DNA from: an uncultured Clostridia bacterium
GTDB lineage: Bacteria; Bacillota; Clostridia; Oscillospirales; Ruminococcaceae
Length of the DNA stretch: 12,242 bases
Reading direction: 5' to 3'
NCBI GenBank assembly: GCA_945931735.1
Contig: CAMEPN010000020.1
Location: forward strand, 1-12,242
The notes below the pieces were generated by a model. That model ran no database searches, was not told the origin of the DNA, and saw only the letters and a list, made by a program, of their open reading frames with translations. Numbering within the stretch: the first letter of the stretch is position 1; each line of letters starts with the position of its first letter. Made by a program: the position numbers and the translations under genes. Below are positions 1 through 12,242 of the stretch, one piece after another.

Positions 1-2
1 TC

Positions 3-881
3 AGCGATGATAATTATACGCGCGATAAGCGGAATGGCTTAATTACATACGATATCGACTTTGACAGGGACACAATAACACGTCACGAAAAAGGCAGGCA
101 GTTCAAGCTGAACGAGATGAGCAAAATCCCGCTTGGCGCGGCGTATTCGCTTATGAGATTTCATGGTGCTGGCGTTCCGGCAGCTGTTTCTGACTGCGAA
201 TATGATGAGTATAATGATATGTCCGGACTATTTGGAAACCGCGATTCTGAAATCAAGGACCGCGGTTTTGTTATATATAGCAACGATGAGTATTTCGAGG
301 CGTATTTAAATTACCTGAAGAATACAGGAGGCTATCAGTTTATTCGTTTTGTAAACGTCAGCGGGTCACAGTACATTTCTTTCAGCCAGCGCGGTTTTGA
401 CAATATCAAGTCTTTTCTGATGCAGAAGCTACAGACAAAGCGTGAGGAAGCTGACCGCCTGGAAGCAGAAATCAACGAAGCATTCAGCGCTGCGGAGCCG
501 ACCGAAATTCCTAAAGATGAAAAATCCGAACTTTCAGAGCTTATAGAAAAGCTCGGTTTGCAAAGTCACTCATACACTTTCAGCGTTGTTTCTCTGGACT
601 CGGAGATTTACGTTACCGGAGCGTATGTAGAGAGCGCTGACGAGCTTGATGAGCTTGGAATCCTCGGTCAGTTTGACAGGGATTTCGGACATGGCGATAC
701 CGTTCATGCTGAGATAAGTTATTATATCATCGGGCAGTCCGGCGTGGAATCCGAAAGGCTCCCGGATGAATTTGGGTGCGACATCGTGTCGCACCTGGAC
801 GCGGCGGTTCAGTACGCCGACCTGCTGGAAGAACGGCCGCTAACGATTGATTTCGGTGATTATGAGATGGCGTTTGAGTGA
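3..881 (+). CDS. Unidentified element protein, 5' end outside window
   Basis: The frame is open from the left edge to the TGA at 879-881, so the gene starts upstream. The first in-window ATG (117) has no Shine-Dalgarno sequence before it and is probably an internal Met. Reading from 117 there are 254 residues. The stretch around 108-170 (LNEMSKIPLGAAYSLMRFHG) looks like a conserved domain edge. Residues about 99-123 (counted from 117) are charged and heptad-like (QKLQTKREEADRLEAEINEA), consistent with a short coiled coil. A second alpha/beta-looking segment follows (TFSVVSLDSEIYVTGAYVES). The tail is acidic and ends DFGDYEMAFE. A copy of the dispersed 21-bp palindrome lies in frame at 775-795 and encodes GCDIVSH. 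I do not recognise the family. Its neighbours suggest a cytoplasmic accessory protein of a conjugative element. Confidence 0.8.
   Translation, partial: SDDNYTRDKRNGLITYDIDFDRDTITRHEKGRQFKLNEMSKIPLGAAYSLMRFHGAGVPAAVSDCEYDEYNDMSGLFGNRDSEIKDRGFVIYSNDEYFEAYLNYLKNTGGYQFIRFVNVSGSQYISFSQRGFDNIKSFLMQKLQTKREEADRLEAEINEAFSAAEPTEIPKDEKSELSELIEKLGLQSHSYTFSVVSLDSEIYVTGAYVESADELDELGILGQFDRDFGHGDTVHAEISYYIIGQSGVESERLPDEFGCDIVSHLDAAVQYADLLEERPLTIDFGDYEMAFE
775..795. repeat. Dispersed palindrome, copy 1 (inside a gene)
   Basis: Arms GGTGCGACA and TGTCGCACC (9 bp, perfect) flank a TCG centre. This is the only copy lying in a coding sequence. Its 21-nt length is a multiple of three, so it keeps the frame. The next copy begins only 88 nt after it ends. 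Confidence 0.9.
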
Positions 882-883
882 TA

Positions 884-912
884 GGTGCGACACGGTGTCG
901 CACCTTTTTTTT
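884..912 (+). terminator. Dispersed palindrome copy 2 with T8 tract: intrinsic terminator or attenuator
   Basis: A perfect GC-rich stem (GGTGCGACA / TGTCGCACC, CGG centre, 884-904) begins 3 nt after the stop of the preceding gene and is followed at once by eight T (905-912). This is the form of a Rho-independent terminator. The next gene's ribosome binding site starts only about 5 nt after the T run, leaving no room for a new promoter. The hairpin therefore either reduces readthrough into the next gene or is overridden in a regulated way. Confidence 0.75.
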
Positions 913-927
913 GAAAGCGAGGATAAA

Positions 928-1665
928 ATGGCACTATACGCAAGGCAGATAAGCCCATCTGAGCAGACCTCTCCATTCTGGGACAGCGCCGAAATATGGG
1001 ACGGCATTTTTCTTTATGAGCCGGTAAGAAAATACGCAGTAGATCCGCACTACAAAAGCATTCTTGAGGTTTTGCAGAACTATTTCGATGTTTCGCATGA
1101 CATTGCGGACAGCAGGTGCGGCGAGTACGATTCCATCGCAGAATACATAAATGACGTTTCACCGCGGCAGGACAATAACCAGTACACGGAAGAACAGCTC
1201 ACCGGCTGGGAGGACGCCGCAAAGTCGTACAATTTCCCGAAAGCAGACGGCTACAATCCCTATTCGCGAATATACGATGAAATGTGGGGAATCTGCAAGG
1301 CGCTCAGTCTTGTTTCAGGCGAAGAATTTGACTGGAAGGAGATCCACGGCTGTTGTCAGGGAGAATACAACCGCGTAATTTACCCGGAGAGCAGATTTTC
1401 AGAGCAGGATATCAAAAATTTTGAATGCGAGTTTTTTAATCTTGGTACAGAGTGGTGCGTAACGGACGAAAAGCCGGATTCTCCAAACGAGATATGCGGC
1501 GGCTGTATTTACTGCCACAACACTGATATTGACAGCATTCGCAGGGAAATCGCCGAGTGTTTCGAATGCGAGCCGGGTGACATTCACCTTTATTCGTACC
1601 ACGAAAAGACCGTCTGCTACTTTGAATCAGAGCAGGACGAGGAAGAATTCGGCATGGAGATGTAA
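928..1665 (+). CDS. Unidentified element protein with CQGE / FFN-GTEW signature
   Basis: This is a 245-residue soluble acidic protein with no signal peptide or membrane segment. I chose the ATG at 928 because GCGAGGA (917-923) precedes it. The longer open frame from 847 would start inside the previous gene and read through the terminator hairpin. Visible signatures are CCQGEYNRVIYPES (from residue 142) and FECEFFNLGTEW (ending at residue 176). Similar 'C-QG-(W/Y)...YP...FE-E-FN-GTEW' patterns occur, from memory, in hypothetical proteins of phages and conjugative elements. A Cys cluster (C190, C193, C196) could bind metal, but this is unproven. The C-terminus is very acidic and ends EQDEEEFGMEM. 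A position in the presumed leading region would suit an anti-defence protein, but I do not see a definite ArdA or ArdC match, so the function is left open. Confidence 0.8.
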   Translation: MALYARQISPSEQTSPFWDSAEIWDGIFLYEPVRKYAVDPHYKSILEVLQNYFDVSHDIADSRCGEYDSIAEYINDVSPRQDNNQYTEEQLTGWEDAAKSYNFPKADGYNPYSRIYDEMWGICKALSLVSGEEFDWKEIHGCCQGEYNRVIYPESRFSEQDIKNFECEFFNLGTEWCVTDEKPDSPNEICGGCIYCHNTDIDSIRREIAECFECEPGDIHLYSYHEKTVCYFESEQDEEEFGMEM

Positions 1666-1670
1666 GGTCA

Positions 1671-1691
1671 GGTGCGACACCGTGCCGCACC
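1671..1691. repeat. Dispersed palindrome, copy 3 (imperfect)
   Basis: Left arm GGTGCGACA, centre CCG, right arm TGCCGCACC. One base of the right arm has changed (T to C), leaving one mismatch in the stem. It lies 6 nt after the previous stop codon and ends about 6 nt before the GGAAAGGAAA ribosome binding site of the next gene. The altered right arm is the same variant seen in the half copy at 2975. Confidence 0.85.
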
Positions 1692-1709
1692 TCCGGAAAG
1701 GAAAATAAA

Positions 1710-2972
1710 ATGGATATCTACAAAAACAGTCTTAAATACGCAAAAGAAAACGGCGAGCTTGAACGGTACCGCGAAAGTATGAATCTGTGTGATGAATGCG
1801 GGACGTTTATAAGCCATTCCATCGCCGAAAATTTCAACAATAATTACCTTGATGTTAAAAAAGTCACTGCGGAAGCCGCCGGGAAATACGGCTTTGAGCC
1901 TGCAATGCTCATGCTTGCGCTACGCGTTGACAGTCTGAAATATGACGGGCGTTTCACCGCCGATAACAAGGAATGGGCGCAGAAGTTACTTGCTGACTAT
2001 CCCAATGCCGAGGAAATCCGGAAAACAGCAGACAGGACGCTCGGAACGGCTCACCCGGTTCTTCTTAACGCCGTGACGGAAGAATTAAGGTCCGCTTTCC
2101 GTGAGAGGAATAAGCAGGAAATCGAGGGCTACCGCATTGTTCAGAGGCTCCAGACTCCCAATTCTGAATTTGTCCTCGGGCAGAACAATAAAATGCCGGG
2201 CTGTTATGTGACTTGGTACAACGCCGACCACAACGGCGGAATCTCCACGGTATGGGGACATTATTTCACCTCAAACGATTCGCAGAATAATCTTGTTTCA
2301 GCATACCGCGACCTGTTCTCCAGAGCGCTTTCTGACGTAAACCAGCACACTCATTTCGAAGAACTCACACCGAAAACAGGCTCTATTATCCGAACCGTAA
2401 ACGGCGAGGATATACAGTTTGAGCTGACTGACGAGGAATGTAACGGAATCTGGGATATGGTCGAACAGCAGAATGTCGAGAGCCATTTCACGGACCTGCT
2501 CAGCGAAAACGGATTTGATGTAGATTCCGCAGATGTAAAGAAAGTGATTACTGAAATGGCGGCGCAGTACCGCGAGGATTTCGGCTTCGGCGATGACGAG
2601 GAGTTTCAGGGATACATAAGCGAACGCGATGACGACCTCAAGGAGCATCTTAATTCCGATACGTTCGGCGATGTGTACGTTGACAATGGCGTTGCAGACT
2701 ACACGGGAAGAATTATGATAATCCGTCCGGAATATTTCAGTTCACGGAGCTTCACTCCCGAGGAACAGCTATTCCTTGCGCAGTCCGGACCGGGCTGTGA
2801 CCCCAAAGAATACGGCGGCGCGGTAAACGGCGTATGTCTGTACGACCGCGAGGAAGCCTCCATCACAAGCGACTGCTTCCTCGGCGCAATGCGTGAGGAA
2901 CACATTCCGATGTGGGCAAGAGAAGCCCGCGATGATATTTCCGAGGAATATGACGAACAGCCGGAGATGTAG
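1710..2972 (+). CDS. DUF3849-type conjugative element protein
   Basis: 420 residues; the ATG at 1710 follows GGAAAGGAAA. Residues about 1-100 carry a DUF3849-like pattern (YKNSLKYAKENGELERYRES, then a DGRFTADNKEWAQKLLADYP segment). A middle region (about 225-295) contains an 'RTVNGEDIQFELTDEE' type segment. The C-terminal part (about 332-405: GRIMIIRPEYF, FLAQSGPGCDPKEYGGAV, then EEHIPMWA) matches a module I recall as common in proteins of clostridial integrative elements. The molecular role of these domains is unknown. The protein is soluble and acidic and ends SEEYDEQPEM. It sits in a co-directional block with the TOPRIM protein downstream, and its intergenic linker is nearly the same as the one before it. 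Confidence 0.85.
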   Translation: MDIYKNSLKYAKENGELERYRESMNLCDECGTFISHSIAENFNNNYLDVKKVTAEAAGKYGFEPAMLMLALRVDSLKYDGRFTADNKEWAQKLLADYPNAEEIRKTADRTLGTAHPVLLNAVTEELRSAFRERNKQEIEGYRIVQRLQTPNSEFVLGQNNKMPGCYVTWYNADHNGGISTVWGHYFTSNDSQNNLVSAYRDLFSRALSDVNQHTHFEELTPKTGSIIRTVNGEDIQFELTDEECNGIWDMVEQQNVESHFTDLLSENGFDVDSADVKKVITEMAAQYREDFGFGDDEEFQGYISERDDDLKEHLNSDTFGDVYVDNGVADYTGRIMIIRPEYFSSRSFTPEEQLFLAQSGPGCDPKEYGGAVNGVCLYDREEASITSDCFLGAMREEHIPMWAREARDDISEEYDEQPEM

Positions 2973-2974
2973 AA

Positions 2975-2987
2975 GTGCCGCACCTCC
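2975..2987. repeat. Dispersed palindrome, copy 4 (right half only)
   Basis: GTGCCGCACCTCC remains of the palindrome, with the left arm missing. From 2975 the sequence matches the end of copy 3 and its ribosome binding site (1682-1705) at 22 of 24 positions, so both junctions appear to derive from one linker. Confidence 0.7.
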
Positions 2988-3000
2988 AGAAAGGAAACCT

Positions 3001-4041
3001 ATGCCGCAGTATAAATACTCCCGTGACGACTACTACCGTCTGACTAACGCTCCCTGCCTGGACGTTGCCAGGGCTCTTGGAATGGAGATAAACGAAAAGG
3101 AAAGCGACCGCAAAAGCTGGAAGATAAAAGGCGAACAGGGGCTGTGCATTTACCGCGAGGGAAACGGCTGGTACCGCTTTTCGGACGGGCGGCATGGATT
3201 TCCTATCGACCTCGTAAAAGACAAGCTCTGCTGTTCTACGGAACAGGCGCTTGATTTCATCGCCCGTTATGTCGTGAACGGAGTTTCCGGGCAGGTGAAT
3301 ATTCCTCGCCGGACTGCCCTGTCAGAGCCGGAAAAACCGCGTGAATTCTCACCGCCGGCACACGACATTTCACCCAGGCGCGTCATGGCATATCTCATAA
3401 AGACAAGAGGAATCGACCCGGAAATCGTGAAAGCAATGATTCAGCAAAAGATGATAGCAGAGGACTCAGTTCATCATAACTGCCTGTTTTTCGGACGTGA
3501 CGAAAACGGAGTGATACGCTCCTGCGCGGTTCGAGGCTCAACGGAAGTGAAATTCCGCGGTGAAGCTCCCGGCGGAGACAAGTCCTGCACATTCGCAATG
3601 GCGGGCAGGAGCGATGTGCTCCGGCTGTTTGAAAGTCCCATTGACGCAATGTCGCACGCCACTTTTACAAAGCTCCTCGGAAAAGACTGGACAGCCGACC
3701 ATCGGCTAAGCGTGAACGGCAGTGGGAACTACGAGAGCATAAAAAGATACCTCGCGAACCACACGGAAATAAAATCCGTGTGGTTTTGCTATGACAGCGA
3801 CCAAGCCGGACGCGACGGTGCGGAAGCCTCCAGCAGTAGGATTTTCGAGGATTTCCCGGACAGAGAATTATCGGTGATGTTCTGCTCTCCTGTCAAAAAT
3901 AAGGACTGGAACGAAGCGCTCCAGCTTTTCCGAGTTTTGGAGAGCCGCGGCGTCACGGTTCGTGAATTTCTTGCTCCCACGGAATTCCGGAGTATTCCGC
4001 CCCCGGACTGTGAACATGACGAATTTGAGTGTGAATTGTAA
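3001..4041 (+). CDS. DUF3991/TOPRIM primase-like protein
   Basis: 346 residues. The ATG at 3001 is preceded by AGAAAGGAAA; an upstream extension to 2893 would overlap the previous gene and is unlikely. The N-terminal part (about 15-85) resembles the zinc-finger-like domain of DNA primases (DVARALGMEI, WYRFSDGRHGFPIDLV) but lacks the CHC2 Cys/His set. A DUF3991-like region follows (about 115-200, with RRVMAYLIKTRGID). The TOPRIM fold is shown by FESPIDAMS (E211, D215) and CYDSDQAGRDG (D265, D267), the acidic metal-binding residues of primases and topoisomerases. Such proteins on mobile elements probably help prime or replicate transferred DNA, though activity for this family is inference. It lies directly before the candidate oriT. 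The tail is acidic: EHDEFECEL. Confidence 0.88.
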   Translation: MPQYKYSRDDYYRLTNAPCLDVARALGMEINEKESDRKSWKIKGEQGLCIYREGNGWYRFSDGRHGFPIDLVKDKLCCSTEQALDFIARYVVNGVSGQVNIPRRTALSEPEKPREFSPPAHDISPRRVMAYLIKTRGIDPEIVKAMIQQKMIAEDSVHHNCLFFGRDENGVIRSCAVRGSTEVKFRGEAPGGDKSCTFAMAGRSDVLRLFESPIDAMSHATFTKLLGKDWTADHRLSVNGSGNYESIKRYLANHTEIKSVWFCYDSDQAGRDGAEASSSRIFEDFPDRELSVMFCSPVKNKDWNEALQLFRVLESRGVTVREFLAPTEFRSIPPPDCEHDEFECEL

Positions 4042-4081
4042 GCACAAGCGTGGCATAGACGCCGCGCAGCTCAGCTTCGAC

Positions 4082-4100
4082 TGCGACATCGTGTCGCACC
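4082..4100. repeat. Dispersed palindrome, copy 5 (shortened left arm)
   Basis: TGCGACA, TCG centre, TGTCGCA (7-bp arms, 4082-4098), followed by CC. The first two G of the left arm are replaced by AC. A run of six T lies at 4112-4117, 12 nt beyond this copy, too far for a classical terminator but possibly contributing to one. It marks the left part of the candidate oriT region. Confidence 0.75.
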
Positions 4101-4131
4101 TGTGAGCATTCTTTTTTCGTAAATTTTCACT

Positions 4132-4146
4132 CCGTACTTTGTACGG
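4132..4146. repeat. Hairpin abutting the proposed nick
   Basis: CCGTAC and GTACGG form 6-bp perfect arms around TTT. On the bottom strand the hairpin starts exactly at the first base after the proposed nick, so it would be at the 5' end of the transferred strand. Confidence 0.7.
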
Positions 4147-4152
4147 CAGGAA

Positions 4153-4172
4153 TAGTGCGGTGTACCGCACTA
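4153..4172. repeat. oriT-type inverted repeat
   Basis: TAGTGCGGT and ACCGCACTA are perfect 9-bp arms around GT. In MOBP oriTs an inverted repeat typically lies a few bases 5' of the nick and is bound by the relaxase or an accessory protein. Here it ends 6 nt before the proposed nick on the bottom strand. It shares the GTGCG...CGCAC frame with the dispersed palindrome but is a distinct sequence. Confidence 0.75.
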
Positions 4173-4181
4173 CTGAACAGC

Positions 4182-4200
4182 GCAGCACCAAAGGTGCTGC
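4182..4200. repeat. Hairpin in oriT region
   Basis: GCAGCACC and GGTGCTGC form perfect 8-bp arms around AAA. No T tract follows, so it is not an evident terminator. It may be a protein-binding or structural element of oriT. Confidence 0.7.
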
Positions 4201-4223
4201 CGTCGGTGTACTGACATAATCAA

Positions 4224-4241
4224 GACACTTGATTTAGTGTC
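4224..4241. repeat. Inverted repeat upstream of the accessory gene
   Basis: GACACT and AGTGTC (6-bp perfect arms) are separated by TGATTT, ending 10 nt before the AGAAAGGAAAA ribosome binding site. It could be an operator or binding site for the ribbon-helix-helix protein encoded just downstream, which would allow autoregulation. That is inference. Confidence 0.5.
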
Positions 4242-4263
4242 ACCATTTTCAGAAAGGAAAACC

Positions 4264-4725
4264 ATGCCTAGAAAGAATCCGGAACGTTCTGTCGTTCTTC
4301 CACAAGAGATGGCTGAGGCTCTTGACAGCTACTCGGCTAAAAAAAGAATAACCACTTCTCAGGCTATCAGGCAGTTTATTGAAAAAGGGCTGTCGATTAC
4401 AAGCTATGAGCAGAGCCAGACCGAGATACGAAATTATATCCGCGAAGAAATCGAAACGGTAATGCCGATAGTAATGAAAAGGTACATGGAACGGCTCATA
4501 GCCATGCAGGCTGTTGCAGCGAGAACATCTGCCGCCGCATTGCAGTGCTGCGTTTCTGTGCTTGCTGAAAATTATATCGACAGCGCAACTCCGGAAGAGA
4601 TACTCGCCAACGCCCTGCGGCAGTCCTGCCGAATAACTAAAACCAAGCCAAAATCTGACGAGGAATATCTCCGGGAAGCTCACGAATGGCTGTCCGCCGA
4701 GCTTGATACGCCAAACGACAAATAA
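4264..4725 (+). CDS. Ribbon-helix-helix relaxosome accessory protein (MobC-like)
   Basis: 153 residues; the ATG at 4264 follows AGAAAGGAAAACC. A GTG at 4237 would add nine residues but overlaps the inverted repeat and lacks a ribosome binding site. The N-terminus shows a ribbon-helix-helix pattern: a basic strand (residues 7-11, RSVVL), helix A (about 14-25, MAEALDSYSAKK), the TTS turn and helix B (about 29-41, SQAIRQFIEKGLS). The rest is helical (SYEQSQTEIRNYIREEIETV). Such proteins bind oriT repeats, help the relaxase nick and often repress their own promoter. Its place between the candidate oriT and the relaxase gene fits this. It does not carry the EM-type tail seen in several neighbours. 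The MobC comparison is by function and place, not by a family match. Confidence 0.82.
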   Translation: MPRKNPERSVVLPQEMAEALDSYSAKKRITTSQAIRQFIEKGLSITSYEQSQTEIRNYIREEIETVMPIVMKRYMERLIAMQAVAARTSAAALQCCVSVLAENYIDSATPEEILANALRQSCRITKTKPKSDEEYLREAHEWLSAELDTPNDK

Positions 4726-4746
4726 CGGTGCTCCCACAGAAAGGCG

Positions 4747-5991
4747 GTGAAACCCATACCCCAAATAATCTACAAACAACAGCACGTTGGAAGCAATGGG
4801 CGCAAATTTACGGCTTCCCGGAACGCTCATTATGTTAAGTACATCGGCGAGCGAGAGCACGTTTTCAAATCCTCTCACGAATCAAATCTTGTGAAATACA
4901 TGGGTGAACGTGAACACGCCGCAAAGCAGTCTGACAATGGGCTTTTCGGATATATTAACGGCAGTTTTTCGGACAATTACAGCACCCCCGAAATGCAGAA
5001 TTACGTCCGAAAAATCTCAACTTCTCACCGCAATGTATTTCACAGCATTTTTTCGTTCACTCCGGAAAGCGCGGAGGAAGCCGGACTGCGGACGCTTATT
5101 GACTGGGAGGAATGGGTGAAATTCCATATCAGCGATATCTCCAGAAACATGAAATTGAAGCAGGAAAACATCGAGTACCTTGCGGCGGTTCATCTGAAAG
5201 AGGGACAGCCGCACGTTCATATCATGTGGTGGGACAAGGCGCAGGAGATTCTTATAAACAAGGTCGATCCGGTGATTTGCGACCAGATACGGATAGATGT
5301 TATCAAAAGCACCTATCACGACCAGTTCGTTGAACTCCACAACAAGGAAAACAGCCTTATAAAAGAGCTTCGCCGACAGGTCGGACACAATGCCGCAGGA
5401 GCGCTTTCGGAAACGAAGCATGACGATTTCACGGAAGCTATTTTTCAGAAGCTCACAGCGATTCGTGAAATGCTCCCGCCGAAAGGACAGGCGGTTTACA
5501 AGCTCATGCCAAAGCCAGTCAAGCAGGAACTGAATTCGCTGACGCATTTTATGATAGACAATATTCCGGAATTCCGCAGTCTGTACGATGAAATACTGGA
5601 CTGCCGCCGGATCTACAATGAAATGCTCCACAGTGATGACAGCAGTTATGGAAAGCTCCAGACGGCGGCGTATATGGGAAAGGTGGTCGATGAAATCGAA
5701 GCCGGAGCTGGGAACACGATTCTTTCCGCGATTCTCAGAGCAATAAAGGATAAGGCGAAAAGTCCCACAGGACGAAACTGCCATGCGGACAGCCATTCGG
5801 AATGGCAGAGGAAATGCACAATTCAGCTTATATCCTCTATCGGAAAACTGCTCGGACAATTCTCCAATTCCAGCCGCGGCAGACTGCATGAGGCTTCAAA
5901 TCAGGTTTTCTGGCGCGGCGACCTCAGCAAGGAACAGATTCGAGAACTCCTGCTGAAAAAGCAGGATAAGGAAAATACTGCCGAGATGTAA
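4747..5991 (+). CDS. mobL: MobL/MOBP-type conjugative relaxase
   Basis: 414 residues from a GTG start. AGAAAGG (4738-4744) lies only 2 nt before it, which is tight; the first in-frame ATG would remove the catalytic region. The His motif AAVHLKEGQPHVHIMWW gives H149, H156 and H158, the metal-binding triad of HUH relaxases. The N-terminus has the Y-x-K-Y-(I/M)-x-x-R block of MobL-like enzymes, with Y29, Y32 or Y51 as candidate nucleophile, followed by NGLFG. The block occurs twice (VKYIGEREH at 30-38, VKYMGEREH at 49-57). The rest is mostly helical. It would cut one strand at oriT, stay linked to its 5' end and pilot it through the type IV channel. The protein ends KENTAEM, sharing the EM tail with unrelated neighbours. 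Confidence 0.85.
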   Translation: MKPIPQIIYKQQHVGSNGRKFTASRNAHYVKYIGEREHVFKSSHESNLVKYMGEREHAAKQSDNGLFGYINGSFSDNYSTPEMQNYVRKISTSHRNVFHSIFSFTPESAEEAGLRTLIDWEEWVKFHISDISRNMKLKQENIEYLAAVHLKEGQPHVHIMWWDKAQEILINKVDPVICDQIRIDVIKSTYHDQFVELHNKENSLIKELRRQVGHNAAGALSETKHDDFTEAIFQKLTAIREMLPPKGQAVYKLMPKPVKQELNSLTHFMIDNIPEFRSLYDEILDCRRIYNEMLHSDDSSYGKLQTAAYMGKVVDEIEAGAGNTILSAILRAIKDKAKSPTGRNCHADSHSEWQRKCTIQLISSIGKLLGQFSNSSRGRLHEASNQVFWRGDLSKEQIRELLLKKQDKENTAEM

Positions 5992-6016
5992 CGGTATTAA
6001 GAAAGGAAAAAACACT

Positions 6017-6343
6017 ATGGACAAATTCAAAGATTACGAGAAGCTTGTAGGCTACTCTTACGCAACCGGCGAGGAAAAAGTAATTCCAAACACGCTGGAA
6101 GATGTTGCCGACTATATCGTCCGCGAGGGATTAATGGGCGATGTCATGATTATTGCAACCGACAACACTCCTGTGCTTAACACAATGGGATTCTTTGTCG
6201 ACAGGTGTTCTGATCCCGAGTATATGGAAGCACTCCGTCCTATTCTGATTGAAAAACAGAATAACTGGGACCAGTACCTCAATGAGGATACAGAAGCTCA
6301 GTCAGATGAAGATGAAGATGAGGACGACCAGCCGGAAATGTGA
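6017..6343 (+). CDS. Small acidic unidentified protein
   Basis: 108 residues with AGAAAGGAAAA before the ATG at 6017. The N-terminal 85 residues look like a compact alpha/beta fold (KLVGYSYATGEEKVIPNT, then EDVADYIVREGLMGDVMIIA). After that comes a very acidic tail (SDEDEDEDDQPEM). There is no signal peptide, membrane segment or recognised motif. It follows the relaxase gene by 25 nt and probably shares its transcript. The PEM ending is the same as in the proteins ending at 2972 and 10332. I do not recognise the family. Confidence 0.78.
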   Translation: MDKFKDYEKLVGYSYATGEEKVIPNTLEDVADYIVREGLMGDVMIIATDNTPVLNTMGFFVDRCSDPEYMEALRPILIEKQNNWDQYLNEDTEAQSDEDEDEDDQPEM

Positions 6344-6351
6344 TTACATTA

Positions 6352-6372
6352 GGTGCGACACGGTGTCGCACT
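6352..6372. repeat. Dispersed palindrome, copy 6
   Basis: GGTGCGACA, CGG centre, TGTCGCACT. The last base is T rather than C, which still pairs as G-U in RNA. It lies 8 nt after the stop of the preceding gene and about 77 nt before the promoter at 6449. The following TTTCATCTT is only weakly T-rich, so termination here is uncertain, but the place between an operon end and a fresh promoter suits a terminator. Confidence 0.88.
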
Positions 6373-6448
6373 TTCATCTTACTCACCATTCAGCAAAACT
6401 CACAAAAAACGAAAAGCAGGTTTGTAAATAGTTTTGCCAATAAACTAA

Positions 6449-6477
6449 TTGACAACTGCTTTCTTTTATGGTAATAT
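6449..6477 (+). promoter_or_regulatory. Near-consensus sigma-A promoter
   Basis: TTGACA (6449-6454), a 17-nt spacer and TAATAT (6472-6477) closely match the housekeeping promoter consensus. The gene start is at 6518, behind AGGAGG (6505-6510). It is the clearest promoter in the window and marks the export genes as a separate transcription unit. Confidence 0.88.
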
Positions 6478-6517
6478 ATACTCAGTAAGATTACATACCC
6501 TAACAGGAGGTTCAAAT

Positions 6518-7117
6518 ATGACACGCTTAAAGACTAACGCACTCAGGACTATTTCAGCGGCAATGCTCATTTCGATTCTCGCCGCAGTGACCGGCTGTTC
6601 AGACAGAAAGCCGGATATAGATTACGACCTTATCGGCGGTACTTACGAAGCCGGAGAGAATGAATACAAAGTCCAGATTTTCAGCGACAGCTCGGATACA
6701 ACTGCGGAAGCTCCCACAGAATCCGAAACAGAAGCGACGACCAGTTCCACTCCCGAAACGACCAAATCCACTACGACTAAACCGGCGGTGACTGTATCCA
6801 CCAGCAAAGCCGCTACTCCGGCGCAGACAGTCCGCACTGACCTGCCGAAAGTAACAGCAGAGCCGCAGTACACCACAGCTTCTACCACGACCACAAAGCC
6901 TAAGCAGACCGAACCAACGGAAATTGAAACGGACGAAAATGGTTTCCCGGCTAACCCTAAAAATGGAGATAAGTTCACGGACAGCACCGGGCAGGAATAC
7001 CAGTTCAACAGCGTATTTGACGCATGGATTCCCGGTAATACTGGAAATCCAGATGTGCAGGAGTTTCCCAGACATGGAGATTATACATACGGCGAGGGGG
7101 AACAGATTCTCCACTAA
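6518..7117 (+). CDS. Thr-rich lipoprotein
   Basis: 199 residues; the ATG at 6518 follows AGGAGG at ideal spacing. Basic start, hydrophobic core (ISAAMLISILAAV) and a lipobox VTGC with the acylated Cys at residue 27 predict a membrane-anchored lipoprotein on the outer face. After an acidic segment comes a long, low-complexity Thr/Ser/Pro/Lys spacer (about residues 54-130), likely extended through the cell wall and possibly glycosylated. A small C-terminal part (about 135-199: NGFPANPKNGDKFTDSTGQ, FNSVFDAWIPGN) looks folded and is the likely functional end. It is transcribed from the strong promoter and is followed by the large secreted protein, suggesting a joint role at the cell surface during mating. 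The family is not recognised. Confidence 0.88.
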   Translation: MTRLKTNALRTISAAMLISILAAVTGCSDRKPDIDYDLIGGTYEAGENEYKVQIFSDSSDTTAEAPTESETEATTSSTPETTKSTTTKPAVTVSTSKAATPAQTVRTDLPKVTAEPQYTTASTTTTKPKQTEPTEIETDENGFPANPKNGDKFTDSTGQEYQFNSVFDAWIPGNTGNPDVQEFPRHGDYTYGEGEQILH

Positions 7118-7134
7118 AATAAAGAACGTCATTG

Positions 7135-7159
7135 CAGGTGCGACACGATGTCGCACCTG
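7135..7159. repeat. Dispersed palindrome, copy 7 (extended)
   Basis: The core is GGTGCGACA, CGA centre, TGTCGCACC (7137-7157), extended by CA and TG to 11-bp arms. A moderately T-rich TTCTGTTTT follows, so partial termination between the lipoprotein gene and the next gene is possible. The ribosome binding site AGGAGG of the next gene begins about 10 nt later. Confidence 0.9.
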
Positions 7160-7182
7160 TTCTGTTTTCAGGAGGATTTGAA

Positions 7183-9603
7183 ATGACTAAAAAGCAGATT
7201 ATTAAAAGAATTTCTGCCTTTGCTCTGCTGTTCTCTTTCAGCACTACTCATGTATTTGCCGACTTAAATTTCGGTAATCAGGACGGTACAGGATTTTCAA
7301 GTGGTACATCAAATAACTATTGGGGCGTTCATACTGATAGTGGAACACCGCTGAATGATACGGAGGGGCTTCGTGTAACAATATACGATGCTGAAACAAA
7401 CAGCAAAGTATTCAATACGATTGACCTGTCGGGAAATGCAAATATATCTGCTGTTTCCAATCTTTATTATTTTGCAGATGGCAGTGAACTGATTTCAAAA
7501 ACCACATGGCTGAACTATATCGGCGGAATTTACAACAGCGTAGACAGCACAGATATGACGAGATTTAATAATATCGTTCTTGAACGTTCTACTCATGGTG
7601 ACGGGTATAGAGTAAACTATGTTGCAGAGCTTTCTACCGTCGATATCGCGTCGGTAAACAACACATCTCACCTCGAAGCAATAAAAGCAATCCTGGGAGA
7701 TGAGCAGTTTCTCACGGATTTATGTGATATAATGGGTGATGGTCTGACTTACGAGGACATATCCAAAGGCAAATACAAAATCGCCTTTGAGCCAGTAGCC
7801 TATTTCCGCTACAACGGTCAGAACTGGGCGATGAGCGCGACAGAATGCGGGCTGCTGAACAAGTACATGAAGAATTATTTTTCTTCCGCATGGAACAGTA
7901 CGAATAATCTCCGTGCGCTTCTTGGTCCGCTTACGCACTCCAACCTGCCGCGCTCTGCTTTTCTTGAAAACAAGGACCTTGGAATTTCAGTGTATTCGCC
8001 CTCCACAAGCGACTACTACAACGGAAATTCAAACTACAACAGCGACACCTGCATTATCCGATGTATGGGAATAGGCGTTCTCACCGGAAACAGCGATGAT
8101 GACGAGGTCGGGGAAGGCACCGCCGCCGCGGAATATCACACCGACACCGATGTTTACACGTCTTTCTATGCTGTGAATATCGGTGATACGCCGTTCATCG
8201 GCAAATCCTCTTTCAGCATATTTGACAACGGCGGTGATACTCCGAAAATGTATGAGCAGCTCAAAGAGGAAAACAAGGAACTTATCAAAGTGACTGGAAG
8301 TCAGTCCGGCGTTTCGTACACCTATGCTTACACCTCCACCGAGCTTGAAACAGTACACGCTGACGAGGACGACCGCATAAAAATTTTCGTTGACAATCCT
8401 GTGAATGTTCCGGACGATGATGGGAATATGCCGTATGTTTCGCCGTATAAACTGCTCGGCTCATACAAGCACGGCGATGAAATCAACCTCGGCAGTTCGT
8501 TCAAGGGAACGGTCGGATACAAAATCAGATCCACGTCCGGCTCTACCTTGAAATCCGGCACGGTTGAGATAACCTGCCCGGCCGGCGGCGAAGAAACAAT
8601 GGGCTGGATAAAGTGGCATACCCCGAGCCGCGAGCAGTCCGTTGTAATTACGCTGGAATCCAAGCGCGACACCCTGCTTCTTCTTGATGAGGACGGCAAC
8701 CAATGCGACAAGCTGACCATCAATGCGGATATCGCAAAGGTCAAGGAATCCACGCCGCCGGACCCGCTGGTTTCGGATACCAAACCGTCATGGCAGAAAG
8801 TATATTCGCAGTCCTCCGTGCAGGAGCGTATTTCCGGATATGTTTCCGGCGACAGCGTTCAGGAACTGAGCTGGTACACCTGGTCGATAGGCGCAGGCTG
8901 GTCGCAGGATTCCGATTACGACAGGCGCAGAGTGAAAATCATAACCGGCGGCATGACGGATCCCTCCAGTCAAACGCCGTACTGGGGCGCAGAAACCGAA
9001 AACCAGGATGTTACCCTATACACATGGGGCGTGGATAATCGGTATTACCCAAGTGCGACTGCCTCAAAAACGATAGGTTCGTTCCATACCGGAGCCGTGT
9101 ATATCTCGACCTCGGATATCCATCTTGAAAAAGTGACCTACTCGGTATCCATGTCGGCGGAAGCCGCGATATCCCCGTCAGATTACTGCAAGACCGCCGC
9201 ATACAGCGAATCCAGCGGAAAATACACAATGAAATCCGGCTATGGAATACAGATAAACGTTGACGCCCACCTCTCCGGAGATACGCAGTACTGCACCGGA
9301 AGCCAGACCGCAAACGTGCTGTTCCCGGAGTTCAACTACAACCGCCACAGCACCACACTTTACAACCGCCTGCTTGAAAAATCGGGCGGCAGTTTTGTTT
9401 TCAGGAAGAATAAATATTCGACTTACAATGACCGTGTTCATTTCACGCCGATTTGGTTTCCGGACAGGAAGAACTACACCGTCTATGTCGAGGTTTTCGA
9501 CGTGTGGTGTCCGGCTGGTCAGCTTTCGGTAAGGCTCACAGACCAGATATTCATTAAGGGCAACGTTTATGACGACTGGCACATTGCGCCGACAAAGCCG
9601 TAG
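7183..9603 (+). CDS. Large secreted protein of conjugative elements
   Basis: 806 residues; the ATG at 7183 follows AGGAGGATTTGAA. An upstream ATG at 7132 would translate the palindrome and is rejected. A Sec signal peptide (KKQIIKRISAFALLFSFS, cleavage likely after VFA at residue 26) is clear. No LPXTG motif, second membrane helix or other anchor is visible, so it is released or held by partners. The first 300 mature residues (GLRVTIYDAETNSK, YKIAFEPVAYFRYNGQNWAM, LTHSNLPRSAFLE, IIRCMGIGVL) match a pattern I recall from large exported proteins encoded near type IV secretion genes in clostridial elements. The rest is beta-rich and repetitive in character, adhesin-like. It has few Cys and many Tyr/Ser/Thr. 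A role in mating-pair contact is inferred. Confidence 0.85.
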   Translation: MTKKQIIKRISAFALLFSFSTTHVFADLNFGNQDGTGFSSGTSNNYWGVHTDSGTPLNDTEGLRVTIYDAETNSKVFNTIDLSGNANISAVSNLYYFADGSELISKTTWLNYIGGIYNSVDSTDMTRFNNIVLERSTHGDGYRVNYVAELSTVDIASVNNTSHLEAIKAILGDEQFLTDLCDIMGDGLTYEDISKGKYKIAFEPVAYFRYNGQNWAMSATECGLLNKYMKNYFSSAWNSTNNLRALLGPLTHSNLPRSAFLENKDLGISVYSPSTSDYYNGNSNYNSDTCIIRCMGIGVLTGNSDDDEVGEGTAAAEYHTDTDVYTSFYAVNIGDTPFIGKSSFSIFDNGGDTPKMYEQLKEENKELIKVTGSQSGVSYTYAYTSTELETVHADEDDRIKIFVDNPVNVPDDDGNMPYVSPYKLLGSYKHGDEINLGSSFKGTVGYKIRSTSGSTLKSGTVEITCPAGGEETMGWIKWHTPSREQSVVITLESKRDTLLLLDEDGNQCDKLTINADIAKVKESTPPDPLVSDTKPSWQKVYSQSSVQERISGYVSGDSVQELSWYTWSIGAGWSQDSDYDRRRVKIITGGMTDPSSQTPYWGAETENQDVTLYTWGVDNRYYPSATASKTIGSFHTGAVYISTSDIHLEKVTYSVSMSAEAAISPSDYCKTAAYSESSGKYTMKSGYGIQINVDAHLSGDTQYCTGSQTANVLFPEFNYNRHSTTLYNRLLEKSGGSFVFRKNKYSTYNDRVHFTPIWFPDRKNYTVYVEVFDVWCPAGQLSVRLTDQIFIKGNVYDDWHIAPTKP

Positions 9604-9615
9604 AAAGGAATCACA

Positions 9616-10332
9616 ATGCCAAACCATGTAACCAATATACTTGCGTTCACAGGACCGCAGGAGAAGATATCCGAAATGCTCGGAAAGATTCAGTTCCCCA
9701 ACAAGCCCGGAACGCTGGATTTCAACAGGGTTATCCCCATGCCGGAATCGCTGGAGATGGATTCCGGAAGTGTTACCAATGATGCGATAGTGTCGTATAT
9801 GAGGGTGGTTAATCCCGATACTCCATCGTATGATGATATAGAAAAGCTACCCTTTAACGACTACATGGAGCTTATGCAAAAGGTAACAAACTTCGTTGGC
9901 AGTCTCTATCCGGACAGAGTAAAAGAAATAACGCCTGACCTGATTCAACTCGGCGGGCGGTACGTTGACAATATCAGGCAGTACGGCTGTTCAGACTGGT
10001 ACGAATGGCGAATACGGAACTGGGGAACAAAGTGGAATTCCTATGACGGCGGCTTCTGCGATGATAACAAAATACTATTCCTGACGGCATGGTCGCCTCC
10101 ACAGGAGATAATCCAGAAGCTCGCAGAGATGAATCCGGAAATCTGCTTTGAACACCTCTGGGCTGACGAAGATTACGGCTACAACTGCGGAAAAGCCGTA
10201 TACGAAAACGGCGGGCAGACCGAGGAATTCCTGCCGGACGGCGGCAGTGAAGAAGCGGAAGAACTTGCAAATTCGGTGTATTCCTACGATATCATTGACG
10301 ATGAATCTAAGGAATGCGAGCCGGAGATGTGA
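9616..10332 (+). CDS. Api92/YubB-like ferredoxin-fold protein
   Basis: 238 residues. AGAAAGGA overlaps the preceding stop codon, and the ATG is at 9616. The start MPNHVTNILAFTG, the middle (YEWRIRNWGTKWNSYDG, W136 region), the FLTAWSPP segment (155-162) and the LWADEDYGYNCG segment are the hallmarks of the Api92/YubB (DUF1281) family, found on plasmids, phages and conjugative elements. The family has a ferredoxin-like fold and no firmly assigned function. The protein is cytoplasmic, with an acidic tail ending DDESKECEPEM. It is probably cotranscribed with the secreted protein gene, only 12 nt upstream. Confidence 0.85.
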   Translation: MPNHVTNILAFTGPQEKISEMLGKIQFPNKPGTLDFNRVIPMPESLEMDSGSVTNDAIVSYMRVVNPDTPSYDDIEKLPFNDYMELMQKVTNFVGSLYPDRVKEITPDLIQLGGRYVDNIRQYGCSDWYEWRIRNWGTKWNSYDGGFCDDNKILFLTAWSPPQEIIQKLAEMNPEICFEHLWADEDYGYNCGKAVYENGGQTEEFLPDGGSEEAEELANSVYSYDIIDDESKECEPEM

Positions 10333-10369
10333 CATCAAACAGCCCTATATTGCTTGCGGAGGAAAGAAC

Positions 10370-10876
10370 ATGAAACACGGAATCACAGAAAATAACAGGC
10401 TCAAAACAATAGAAATCGACAAGTGCGAATCAGTTCCAGGCAGTCCCGAAACCAGTCATACAGCCAGACGTGCAGGCAGGCAAGAGATATTTGAACAGCT
10501 CAAAGACCACCTTGAATATCTTGGAATGATCCCAGATGACTATTTCAAGCTCTCAGAAGCTGAATCAGATATCATTCCGGCAGACTGGCTGGATTTTAAC
10601 AGCATTGTTTCGTTTGACGGGAGCGATGGAATCTTTCTTGATATTTACCTCAACACATCGAATGGCACACAGAAATTTGCGTCTGGGAAAACTCTCAACG
10701 CAAGCACAGACAGCTTTATTTGGCTTTCTAGAATTGCGGCAGAATGCAATCTTATGCTAAACGGAAACGGCTGTGAACTTTTTCTCCCACAGGATATCGA
10801 AGATGAATTACGGAATACGGATAATTCGGAGCAGATTCAAAACTGCGGCGATGAATATGACGAATTTGAACCTTGA
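10370..10876 (+). CDS. Unidentified acidic protein
   Basis: 168 residues. The ATG at 10370 is preceded by GGAGGAAAG (10358-10366). A longer frame from 10148 would lie inside the previous gene and is rejected. The N-terminus is polar and probably flexible (to about residue 30). Then come a helical part (QEIFEQLKDHLEYLGMIPDD) and a beta-rich part (NSIVSFDGSDGIFLDIYL) with a possible calcium-like acidic loop, though this is weak. The tail (CGDEYDEFEP) is acidic like its neighbours but lacks the EM ending. Family not recognised; context suggests an accessory protein of the element. Confidence 0.75.
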   Translation: MKHGITENNRLKTIEIDKCESVPGSPETSHTARRAGRQEIFEQLKDHLEYLGMIPDDYFKLSEAESDIIPADWLDFNSIVSFDGSDGIFLDIYLNTSNGTQKFASGKTLNASTDSFIWLSRIAAECNLMLNGNGCELFLPQDIEDELRNTDNSEQIQNCGDEYDEFEP

Positions 10877-10888
10877 AAGGAATCACCA

Positions 10889-11704
10889 ATGACCACCCAC
10901 GGAAAATACTGCGATTTTGACTTCTATGTTGCCAGCTTTGACGCAGCCAACCGATATGCAGGCACCGAGCCAACGTCCTCCGGACTTTCACTTCTGGAGG
11001 CGGTTTCGGAATTTTACAAGCGGTGCGGCAGATATCCGTCAAGCACTAATATCATGCTCGGCGTGGAATACACGACCAGCCGCCGTGACCTTGAACCTAC
11101 CGGAAAAGGCGCGGCTGACCTGCTCCAGCGAGTAAATGGAGCGCTCAAAATTTCACGGGATTTTGAGCAGTCCGAAGTACTGAAACATGAGGGGCTTATC
11201 GCAAATAATGCTGTTTCGTTCCTGAAACAGCAGAGCGAGAATTTGTACGAACTGAGCGACAAATACACGATAGAATGCGCCCGTAAGATAGCCGAAAGCC
11301 TCAGCCAGATATCCGGAGATCCGCAGAAGTGCCGTGACCTCATGGCGCAGTTGACGGACGAATACGGTCTGGAGCGTTGTAAAGTAATCCTTGCGAACGA
11401 GTATTACGGCAATTCTTCTGGAATGCTGACCCCGGAAACGGCGGCATATCTTGACGAAGCCTGCGACCGGCACGATGACCGTTTCAACATCAATGCACCG
11501 CCGATGGCTCTGGAAAACCTCGCTTCCGCAGTCCGTGAAATCGAAGGGCTGTCCGACACGGAAAACAAGATTCTCCGAGCCGGACTGGTGAACGGTGACA
11601 GAGAGCAGATCCAGAGCTGTTCTGCGCCGATTAAGTCTGAAATCGGTCATCACAACGACCTAGAGAACAATGGACTTGTGCCGGAAGATCAATGGAGTTT
11701 GTGA
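10889..11704 (+). CDS. Unidentified element protein, possibly DUF3849-related
   Basis: 271 residues; AAAGGA overlaps the upstream stop, and the ATG is at 10889. It is mostly helical and soluble. The segment at about 148-175 (LMAQLTDEYGLERCKVILAN) is like the 'EYG-R-..VLAN' core of DUF3849 proteins, as is the following TPETAAYLDEACD, but the match is partial and from memory. The stop (TGA 11702-11704) overlaps the next start (ATG 11704-11706), indicating translational coupling. No EM-type tail; it ends PEDQWSL. Confidence 0.75.
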   Translation: MTTHGKYCDFDFYVASFDAANRYAGTEPTSSGLSLLEAVSEFYKRCGRYPSSTNIMLGVEYTTSRRDLEPTGKGAADLLQRVNGALKISRDFEQSEVLKHEGLIANNAVSFLKQQSENLYELSDKYTIECARKIAESLSQISGDPQKCRDLMAQLTDEYGLERCKVILANEYYGNSSGMLTPETAAYLDEACDRHDDRFNINAPPMALENLASAVREIEGLSDTENKILRAGLVNGDREQIQSCSAPIKSEIGHHNDLENNGLVPEDQWSL

Positions 11705-11877
11705 TGGAAGAACTGAAATTCCTGTCAGCCGCAGTTCTGGCGCTGACCATCGCCGTTTCCTGCCAAGAAGAATACAACCCCGCCGCCGGTTACAGTCAAA
11801 TGTACGGCGGCGCTGTTATTTATGAGTGGCGGCTGGATACGGTTTCGCTGTATTCTCTCAAAGGAATGCGGCTTTAA
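11704..11877 (+). CDS. Small hydrophobic protein
   Basis: 57 residues, starting within the stop of the preceding gene and preceded by GGAG (11694-11697). An earlier in-frame ATG at 11692 would add four residues but has a poorer site. Residues about 5-19 (KFLSAAVLALTIAVS) form a hydrophobic stretch long enough to be a short membrane segment, followed by Cys20. The sequence before Cys (AVSC) is a poor lipobox and the N-terminus is acidic, so a lipoprotein is doubtful. The remainder is soluble. It lies 10 nt before the coupling protein gene, as small membrane proteins often do in conjugation operons. Confidence 0.6.
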   Translation: MEELKFLSAAVLALTIAVSCQEEYNPAAGYSQMYGGAVIYEWRLDTVSLYSLKGMRL

Positions 11878-11887
11878 CGGAGGGAGA

Positions 11888-12242
11888 ATGAAAAACAAAA
11901 GCAAATACTACCGCATTCCAGTCTGCATATTCATCTTCATTATCGGGACTTTTGCCGCCCTGATTTTCTCAAACGCTCTGAACGATATGCTGACTGAGGA
12001 CAGAATAACCACCCGAATGACGGATATCAGCGGACTTATCGGGAACGTCCTCGCTGAGGATAAGCTGAAACAGCTGTTCCTCCTGCTGGAGGTTCTGGTT
12101 CTGCTTATGTGCGCTGTCTATTATGTATGTGCCGACAGGTCATATCAGGCGGAAACCTTTGCGGTGACAGATGAAATATCCGTCCCCGTGCCATACGGAC
12201 AGGGACAGCACGGCACTGCATGGTTCATGTCGGACAAGATAA
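11888..12242 (+). CDS. VirD4/TraG-type coupling protein, N-terminal part
   Basis: 118 residues are visible before the right edge cuts the gene; the ATG at 11888 follows GGAGG (11879-11883). Two membrane helices (about 10-28 and 61-81) enclose an external loop of about 30 residues, the usual anchor of the type IV coupling protein. The segment VPYGQGQHGTAWFMSDK resembles the conserved 'GQGQHGSARW' region that precedes the ATPase domain in VirD4/TraG proteins of Gram-positive elements. The Walker A and B motifs would lie beyond the window. The protein would couple the relaxosome to the secretion channel using ATP. Confidence 0.82.
   Translation, partial: MKNKSKYYRIPVCIFIFIIGTFAALIFSNALNDMLTEDRITTRMTDISGLIGNVLAEDKLKQLFLLLEVLVLLMCAVYYVCADRSYQAETFAVTDEISVPVPYGQGQHGTAWFMSDKI

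Follow-up and report, generated by a model that had tools for sequence, protein, structure and literature searches.

A dispersed, sequence-constrained palindrome in a putative MobL-type transfer element of a Ruminococcaceae bacterium

The stretch of DNA analysed here, called the window, comprises positions 1-12242 of contig CAMEPN010000020.1 (C20), from a metagenome-assembled genome (MAG) of an uncultured Clostridia bacterium of the Ruminococcaceae. Judged by its genes, it is part of a MobL-type transfer element. The window carries a dispersed palindrome, GGTGCGACA-N3-TGTCGCACC, that is real, element-bound and constrained in sequence. The analysis reveals a palindrome family, its restriction to the element in two MAGs, a base-specific constraint and a characteristic position relative to genes. 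The best explanation, which is put forward tentatively and at somewhat less than even probability, is that the copies are dispersed operators of a putative dimeric regulator, with recombination occurring between copies. We infer that a protein binds the palindrome, that the element encodes this protein and that the protein silences.

The first-pass annotation had reported seven sites of one palindrome between 775 and 7157. All were recovered, as six palindromes and one right half. A search of the window allowing three mismatches matched the six palindromes, which carry zero to two mismatches, and 200 dinucleotide shuffles of the window contained no match. The sites, none of which has a strand, are as follows.

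775..795: palindrome, exact arms (0 mismatches), centre TCG, within open frame 3-881, where it reads GCDIVSHL
884..904: palindrome, exact arms (0 mismatches), centre CGG, 2 nt past a stop codon, followed by 8 T (terminator-like)
1671..1691: palindrome, 1 mismatch (right half TGCCGCA), centre CCG, 5 nt past a stop codon
2975..2984: right half-palindrome GTGCCGCACC, 2 nt past a stop codon
4080..4100: palindrome, 2 mismatches, left arm shortened, core 4082-4098 exact, centre TCG, 38 nt past a stop codon
6352..6372: palindrome, 1 mismatch, centre CGG, 8 nt past a stop codon
7137..7157: palindrome, exact arms (0 mismatches), extending to 11-bp arms at 7135-7159, centre CGA, 19 nt past a stop codon

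As first described, six sites lie behind stop codons, and 775 alone is within a gene. The reported absence of the motif to the right of 7160 also held, with zero matches in 7160-12242 at up to three mismatches.

Confinement to transfer elements

The MAG consists of 377 contigs totalling 2.15 Mb and is 70% complete, so some motif copies may be missing from the counts. ParB-type genes are found on another of its contigs, C63, as is a large gene whose product has N6-methylase domains and which we take to be LtrC-like. C63 is assigned to the same element as the window because both match neighbouring parts of the sister element L011, with about 3 kb between them. A relative is contig C13 of MAG CAMELR01, which is 97.9% identical over window 1-4200 and 89.4% identical over 4425-12242. 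CAMELR01 contains a second element, C17, which is a sister element with a MobL protein 60% identical.

A genome-wide search with up to three mismatches, as the first-pass annotation had proposed, found eight places in the MAG, six on C20 and two on C63. All eight carry at most two mismatches, and a reversed-pattern control gave five matches at up to three mismatches. CAMELR01 has 18 places, eight on C13, ten on C17 and zero elsewhere (reversed control, seven). The motif is confined to element contigs in both MAGs and is not spread across the host, which supports an element system over a host repeat. The exact core TGCGACA-N3-TGTCGCA was present in one of 299 genomes of a phylum sample, the query genome G000 itself (reversed control, three). 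A family sample of 297 genomes, G000 among them, gave 12 carriers (reversed control, five). Among the 11 other family genomes with the core, G892 and G818 hold it beside element-type genes; the context of the remaining ones was read from short flanks only. G892 has five exact cores. In G818, contig C59, which encodes an LtrC-like protein, has three copies, one of them with a like change on both arms.

A more distant carrier is MT835532, termed a bacteriophage and obtained from human faeces. It encodes ParA and ParB in addition to MobL and LtrC-like proteins that are 28.7% and 38% identical to those of the element, and it contains 15 motif copies (at most two mismatches) spread over about 30 kb. 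The motif is kept between elements at this level of divergence (MobL 29%, large LtrC-like protein 38%). Six other MobL-bearing stretches, five from other genomes (23 to 40 kb) and one from G000 (C91, 6.9 kb), have zero copies at up to four mismatches and no palindrome family exceeding two copies; repeated inner arms in these stretches amount to two-copy cases, two in G1299 and one in G1143. A relaxase query retrieved only G000 itself in an order sample of 394 genomes and G000 plus five others in a class sample of 391, and found no relative among viral contigs. In a separate search, 434 homologues of the relaxase were reported. Window 1-8000 had no DNA-level match among plasmids. As a padded query, the motif retrieved no plasmid; its phage matches were MT835532 plus three weaker records. 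A full-text literature search for the motif letters found no account of such a repeat among the matches listed, as far as their titles and the start of their abstracts tell.

Sequence constraint, position and candidate functions

Constraint was assessed in a set of 43 copies, in which orthologues from the two MAGs count as separate entries. All 43 copies have T3, C8 and A9 unchanged on each arm, and positions 1, 2 and 7 are loose. The earlier suggestion of selection on the stem or on two-fold symmetry is supported to the extent that the symmetry is constrained, with these three bases fixed on both arms. The centres do change, as had been reported, but they are not free; CGG, CGA, CCG or TCG occupies 38 of 43 copies, and the triplets are found in both orientations relative to genes. 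Among 37 one-sided changes, 13 are mispaired on both strands, 13 form a wobble pair only in the antisense strand and 11 form a wobble pair in the sense strand. Both-sided changes comprise six complementary cases and one non-complementary case. Changes at position 7 are mostly uncompensated, though some are matched on both arms.

Copies also occur within genes. Six palindromes in the LtrC-like gene of C63, C13 and C17 all read VRHxxA in one frame, and in-frame copies are present in two genes, so that the palindrome uses both coding and non-coding places. The recurrent mid-stem mismatches, the base-specific conservation and the copies within genes favour a two-fold DNA site over an RNA hairpin. 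Four orthologous junctions keep the palindrome in the window and C13 versus C17, with 15, 16, 19 and 21 of 21 bases alike, and the junction of C17 orthologous to window 2975 has a complete palindrome at 25302. The C17 homologue of open frame 3-881 is of equal length at the 775 site and lacks the palindrome.

Position was counted in C13, C17 and MT835532, where 20 of 28 intergenic copies begin within 20 nt past a stop codon, compared to 9.1 expected under uniform placement (P 5e-5). The count left out gene-internal copies (C13 21769, 21808 and 27678; C17 18556 and 18895; one in MT835532) as well as C13 31012, which is covered by a doubtful small frame. A simple open-frame caller supplied the gene ends, and some of its starts are bound to be in error.

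The first-pass annotation had listed several possible roles, including operators, a small mobile palindromic element and attenuators, and had preferred none of them. Operators are favoured, as the site is base-specific and symmetric, is mostly uncompensated at position 7 and has gene-internal copies. The mobile element survives in part, in that copies carry flanks and bound differing segments. Attenuators or terminators are disfavoured as a general role. Scored out of eight, the T run behind the stem is eight at 884, five at 6352 and 7137 and one to two at the other copies, so a full run directly behind the stem, as in intrinsic terminators, is present in one of six window copies. According to the operator model, the two-fold symmetric site, with core TGCGNCA-N3-TGNCGCA and here nearly always with centre CGR, would be recognised by a putative dimeric DNA-binding protein. 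Acting from many sites, this protein would silence or organise the block of genes that surrounds the origin of transfer (oriT). Where a site lies just past a stop codon, the bound protein could act between genes. Copies may have been spread and exchanged by recombination between palindromes, which match in either orientation. The element encodes ParA and two ParB-type proteins, both over the Pfam ParB_N cut-off in C13, and the two ParB-type proteins are candidate binders and no more.

Several results weigh against operators. No binding protein was identified, the helix-turn-helix region of ParB does not separate palindrome carriers from the rest, and 10 of the 11 other core-bearing family genomes lack a ParB match on the same contig. 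Most element copies are without a nearby promoter. Placement close behind stop codons would fit an RNA 3'-end element as well. Both-sided complementary changes exceed those in shuffles (7 cells versus 2.9; covariation score, 0 of 500 shuffles), and a hairpin would give the same; the test used 40 copies in 30 distinct rows, and relatedness inflates its result. The placement behind stop codons, the both-sided changes, the 91.5% of cells that give a standard pair, the 8 T behind 884 and the T runs behind two G818 copies are expected if the palindromes act as RNA hairpins at the ends of genes, where they would serve to process or stabilise a polycistronic mRNA or to bring about partial termination. 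This explanation is nevertheless rather unlikely, given that position 7 is unpaired in 7 of 30 distinct rows, that loop triplets occur in both orientations relative to genes, that some copies are in frame within genes and that the sequence of the stem itself is conserved beyond pairing.

The presence of ParA and ParB on the element raises the possibility that the palindromes are parS centromere sites of its ParAB system. One G892 copy overlaps the end of parA just ahead of parB, and one MT835532 copy lies about 200 bp ahead of parA. However, C13 and C17 have no copy at parAB, the nearest being more than 5 kb away, and the residues of the ParB recognition region do not track with the palindrome; a centromere role is quite improbable. 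Least probable of the functions considered is that the copies form single-stranded DNA structures in transfer, for instance promoters used on entry or sites of priming. In favour of this role, the window element and C17 have their copies no more than roughly 10 kb from the likely oriT, to its left and right. Against it stand this very location on both sides and, in MT835532, a spread of about 30 kb.

Exchange at palindromes and the surrounding gene block

The proteins of the window include DUF3849, DUF3991/Toprim, a MobL relaxase and an Api92-like DUF1281_C protein. The features relevant to exchange, in addition to the palindromes, are as follows.

928..1665, + strand: gene between palindromes 884 and 1671, for which no homologue was found in sister element C17
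1710..2972, + strand: DUF3849 gene
3001..4041, + strand: DUF3991/Toprim gene, primase-like
4040..4099, - strand: inverted repeat of a stretch within the large LtrC-like gene (L011 63-122, 90%), with a palindrome at its end
4153..4234, no strand: likely oriT, predicted from three inverted repeats ahead of a small MobC-like gene (labelled from gene position; no Pfam match)
4747..5991, + strand: MobL relaxase gene, over the Pfam cut-off

Comparison of C63/C20 with C13 and C17 suggests that palindromes bound segments that differ between sister elements. Two palindromes of the LtrC-like gene enclose 378 bp in C63 and 39 bp in C13, and the reading frame is kept in each case. The gene at 928-1665, for which C17 gave no homologue, has palindromes at its edges. 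The DUF3849 gene of C17 is at another junction, one that lacks a palindrome in the window, and has palindromes on both sides; in the window its right-hand palindrome is the half copy, and in C17 one extra small gene precedes the right-hand palindrome. The small gene after MobL also differs, with a palindrome on each side in C17 and on the right only in the window. Part of the DUF3849 protein is weakly matched (25%, E 1e-4) by the product of this small gene of C17. In C13, an 88-bp inverted copy joins the flank of the LtrC palindrome and the primase junction, and two palindromes are at places where the window lacks one. MT835532 has several repeats of 60-113 bp that contain palindromes. The association of segment edges with palindromes is only suggestive, because most junctions of the block carry a palindrome and some coincidence is expected.

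These differences are what would be expected of a recombination-propagated palindromic repeat without a regulatory role, similar to REP sequences or the Rickettsia elements discussed below, that spreads through template switching or gene conversion, both inside an element and from one element to another, carries its flanks along and marks places of gene exchange. Such a repeat is possible, if less probable than operators. It does not readily account for the persistence of copies at four orthologous junctions whose flanks have drifted, and neither a transposase nor an empty site was shown. A more specific and doubtful proposal is that the palindromes delimit exchangeable gene cassettes around oriT, integron-like but without attC. 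Situated behind the stop codon, a 17-bp site that is self-complementary and works in either orientation would let genes and in-frame segments swap, invert and duplicate between conjugative elements. Integron cassettes consist of a gene followed by attC, an imperfect palindrome right behind the stop codon. The palindrome here shares this location but is far shorter, and no attC core sites were seen; no search for an integrase was made.

The block belongs to a larger gene set. C13 encodes, in order, DUF6017, ParA, ParB, a PD-(D/E)XK protein, a second ParB type and the LtrC-like protein (2,476 aa), followed by accessory genes, the primase-like, MobC-like and MobL proteins, further genes and a coupling-protein homologue. 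The last starts at the right end of the window, and beyond it are genes conserved with the sister element. The coupling protein (C13 38874-40907) is homologous to a TraG/VirD4-type protein of MT835532. The element thus has both a MobL relaxase and a coupling-protein homologue, as is typical of a transferable element, and its excision and transfer are putative.

Several further observations concern this gene set. Identity to sister element L011 drops from 97.9% to 89.4% across window 4200-4425, at the likely oriT and where the MobC-like gene begins, which suggests a recombination point. The PD-(D/E)XK (PF12784) protein of C13 (16421-17266; L161) is 84% identical to its C17 homologue, above the surrounding ParB and MobL proteins. 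Unrelated proteins of the palindrome block share a C-terminal acidic tail ending in E-M or E-I (GMEM, QPEM, TAEM, QPEM, EPEM), encoded in the window by 928-1665, 1710-2972, 4747-5991, 6017-6343 and 9616-10332. Such ends are found in 6 of 41 listed genes in C13, 7 of 39 in C17 and 4 of 31 in MT835532; those of C13 and C17 are all between the LtrC-like and DUF1281_C genes. They are possibly a common C-terminal signal, for example for transport. In MT835532 (L141 near 33828, 21453, 7740 and 6713), several palindromes have behind them a recurring sequence, about 45 nt long, that can form a nested hairpin (AGAGC, then CGGG-TGCAACT-CCCG, then GCTCT), in repeats of 73-113 bp. A tRNA search of MT835532 was empty, and Rfam gave three matches, all below the gathering score; for the window, Rfam gave zero matches.

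Related sites in phages and known systems

The exact 21-base pattern is present in at least 120 IMG/VR contigs, compared to 1, 0 and 3 for three control palindromes. Among the matches listed, these contigs form 10 DNA clusters, of 96, 12, 3 and 3 contigs plus six single contigs, in which the clusters of 12 and 3 (including L071 and L079) are one linked phage group. Genes for a terminase and an SU10-like portal protein are present on one contig of the largest cluster. Of 149 distinct phage sites, 75 have a TTGAC no more than 45 nt away (80 of 298 flanks versus 11.4 in shuffles); its commonest offset, 15, stems from the largest cluster, where no -10 box was seen by eye. In six linked phage records (up to 172 kb; G1322-G1327, L187-L216), the core TGCGWCA-N3-TGWCGCA precedes promoters of the TTGAC-N16/17-TATAAT type. 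Deduplication leaves 28 sites, and in every one the best-scoring promoter is at offset 0, 4, 10-11 or 20-21; each of the four offset-4 sites has another -35 at 21. Since 1512 of 3000 random windows reach the same promoter score, the evidence lies in the offsets and not in the score; the sites are related by descent and represent far fewer independent cases. Offsets of 0, 10-11 and 20-21 bp to the -35 would suit a DNA-bound factor on one helix face.

A common origin of the element and phage motifs was considered and is not shown. The core with the element-type centre CGR is found in 23 contigs, of which 16 of the 21 new ones are single-copy and none encodes relatives of the queried element proteins. 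None of 17 viral records reached the ParB_N cut-off, although two gave a weak match. Comparison of element with phage proteins gave one match, to a C13 protein (64095-65141) far from the palindromes, and none for C17 or MT835532. A link between the two motifs, by origin or by binding protein, is unproven. Longer phage stems were rejected. They were assessed in 60 contexts that the search pattern had not selected, where the innermost two of the outer pairs are as complementary as shuffled ones (30 versus 27.4 and 23 versus 22.3), and outer pairs 3, 4 and 5 exceed the shuffled mean (21, 20 and 25 versus about 15) but are inside the shuffle range. Separately, viral contigs L072, L073, L118 and L131 contain two to five palindromes or partial copies in 40 to 200 bp, and copy number there varies between close relatives.

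If the palindromes are operators, their control logic would resemble that of the RK2 KorB operators or of phage stoperators. KorB of RK2 is described as a ParB-family CTPase clamp, with 16-bp operators (OB) located 4-10 bp or 45 to >1,000 bp ahead of target promoters (PMC11790492). As in RK2, several symmetric sites are located on one transferable element that also encodes ParB-type proteins. The sequence differs from OB, however, the site is 17-21 bp instead of 16, it hugs stop codons and its binder is only putative. Promoter-like sites near the palindrome were seen for 2 of 15 MT835532 copies, which lie 7 bp ahead of a good promoter-like site and are copies of each other, and for palindrome 6352, which has a promoter-like site (TTGACA-N17-TAATAT) 78 bp downstream; none is evident for the others. 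The stoperators of cluster A mycobacteriophages such as L5 (PMC9283540, PMC6550527) are 13-mers without symmetry; a monomer binds them, and their orientation follows that of transcription. They too are numerous over one element and located in short intergenic spaces, where they are proposed to stop transcription between genes. Unlike stoperators, the site here is two-fold symmetric, with centre triplets in both orientations. Rickettsia palindromic elements, described as about 150 bp long and present in many host genes (PMC10969869), are likewise palindromic repeats of which some are in frame within genes. The unit here is 17-21 bp, confined to the element and mostly intergenic behind stop codons.

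If the palindromes serve as operators, this class of transferable elements would have a control site that works across the whole element and is recognisable from sequence. If they are instead cassette junctions, they would show how transferable elements reshuffle their genes.

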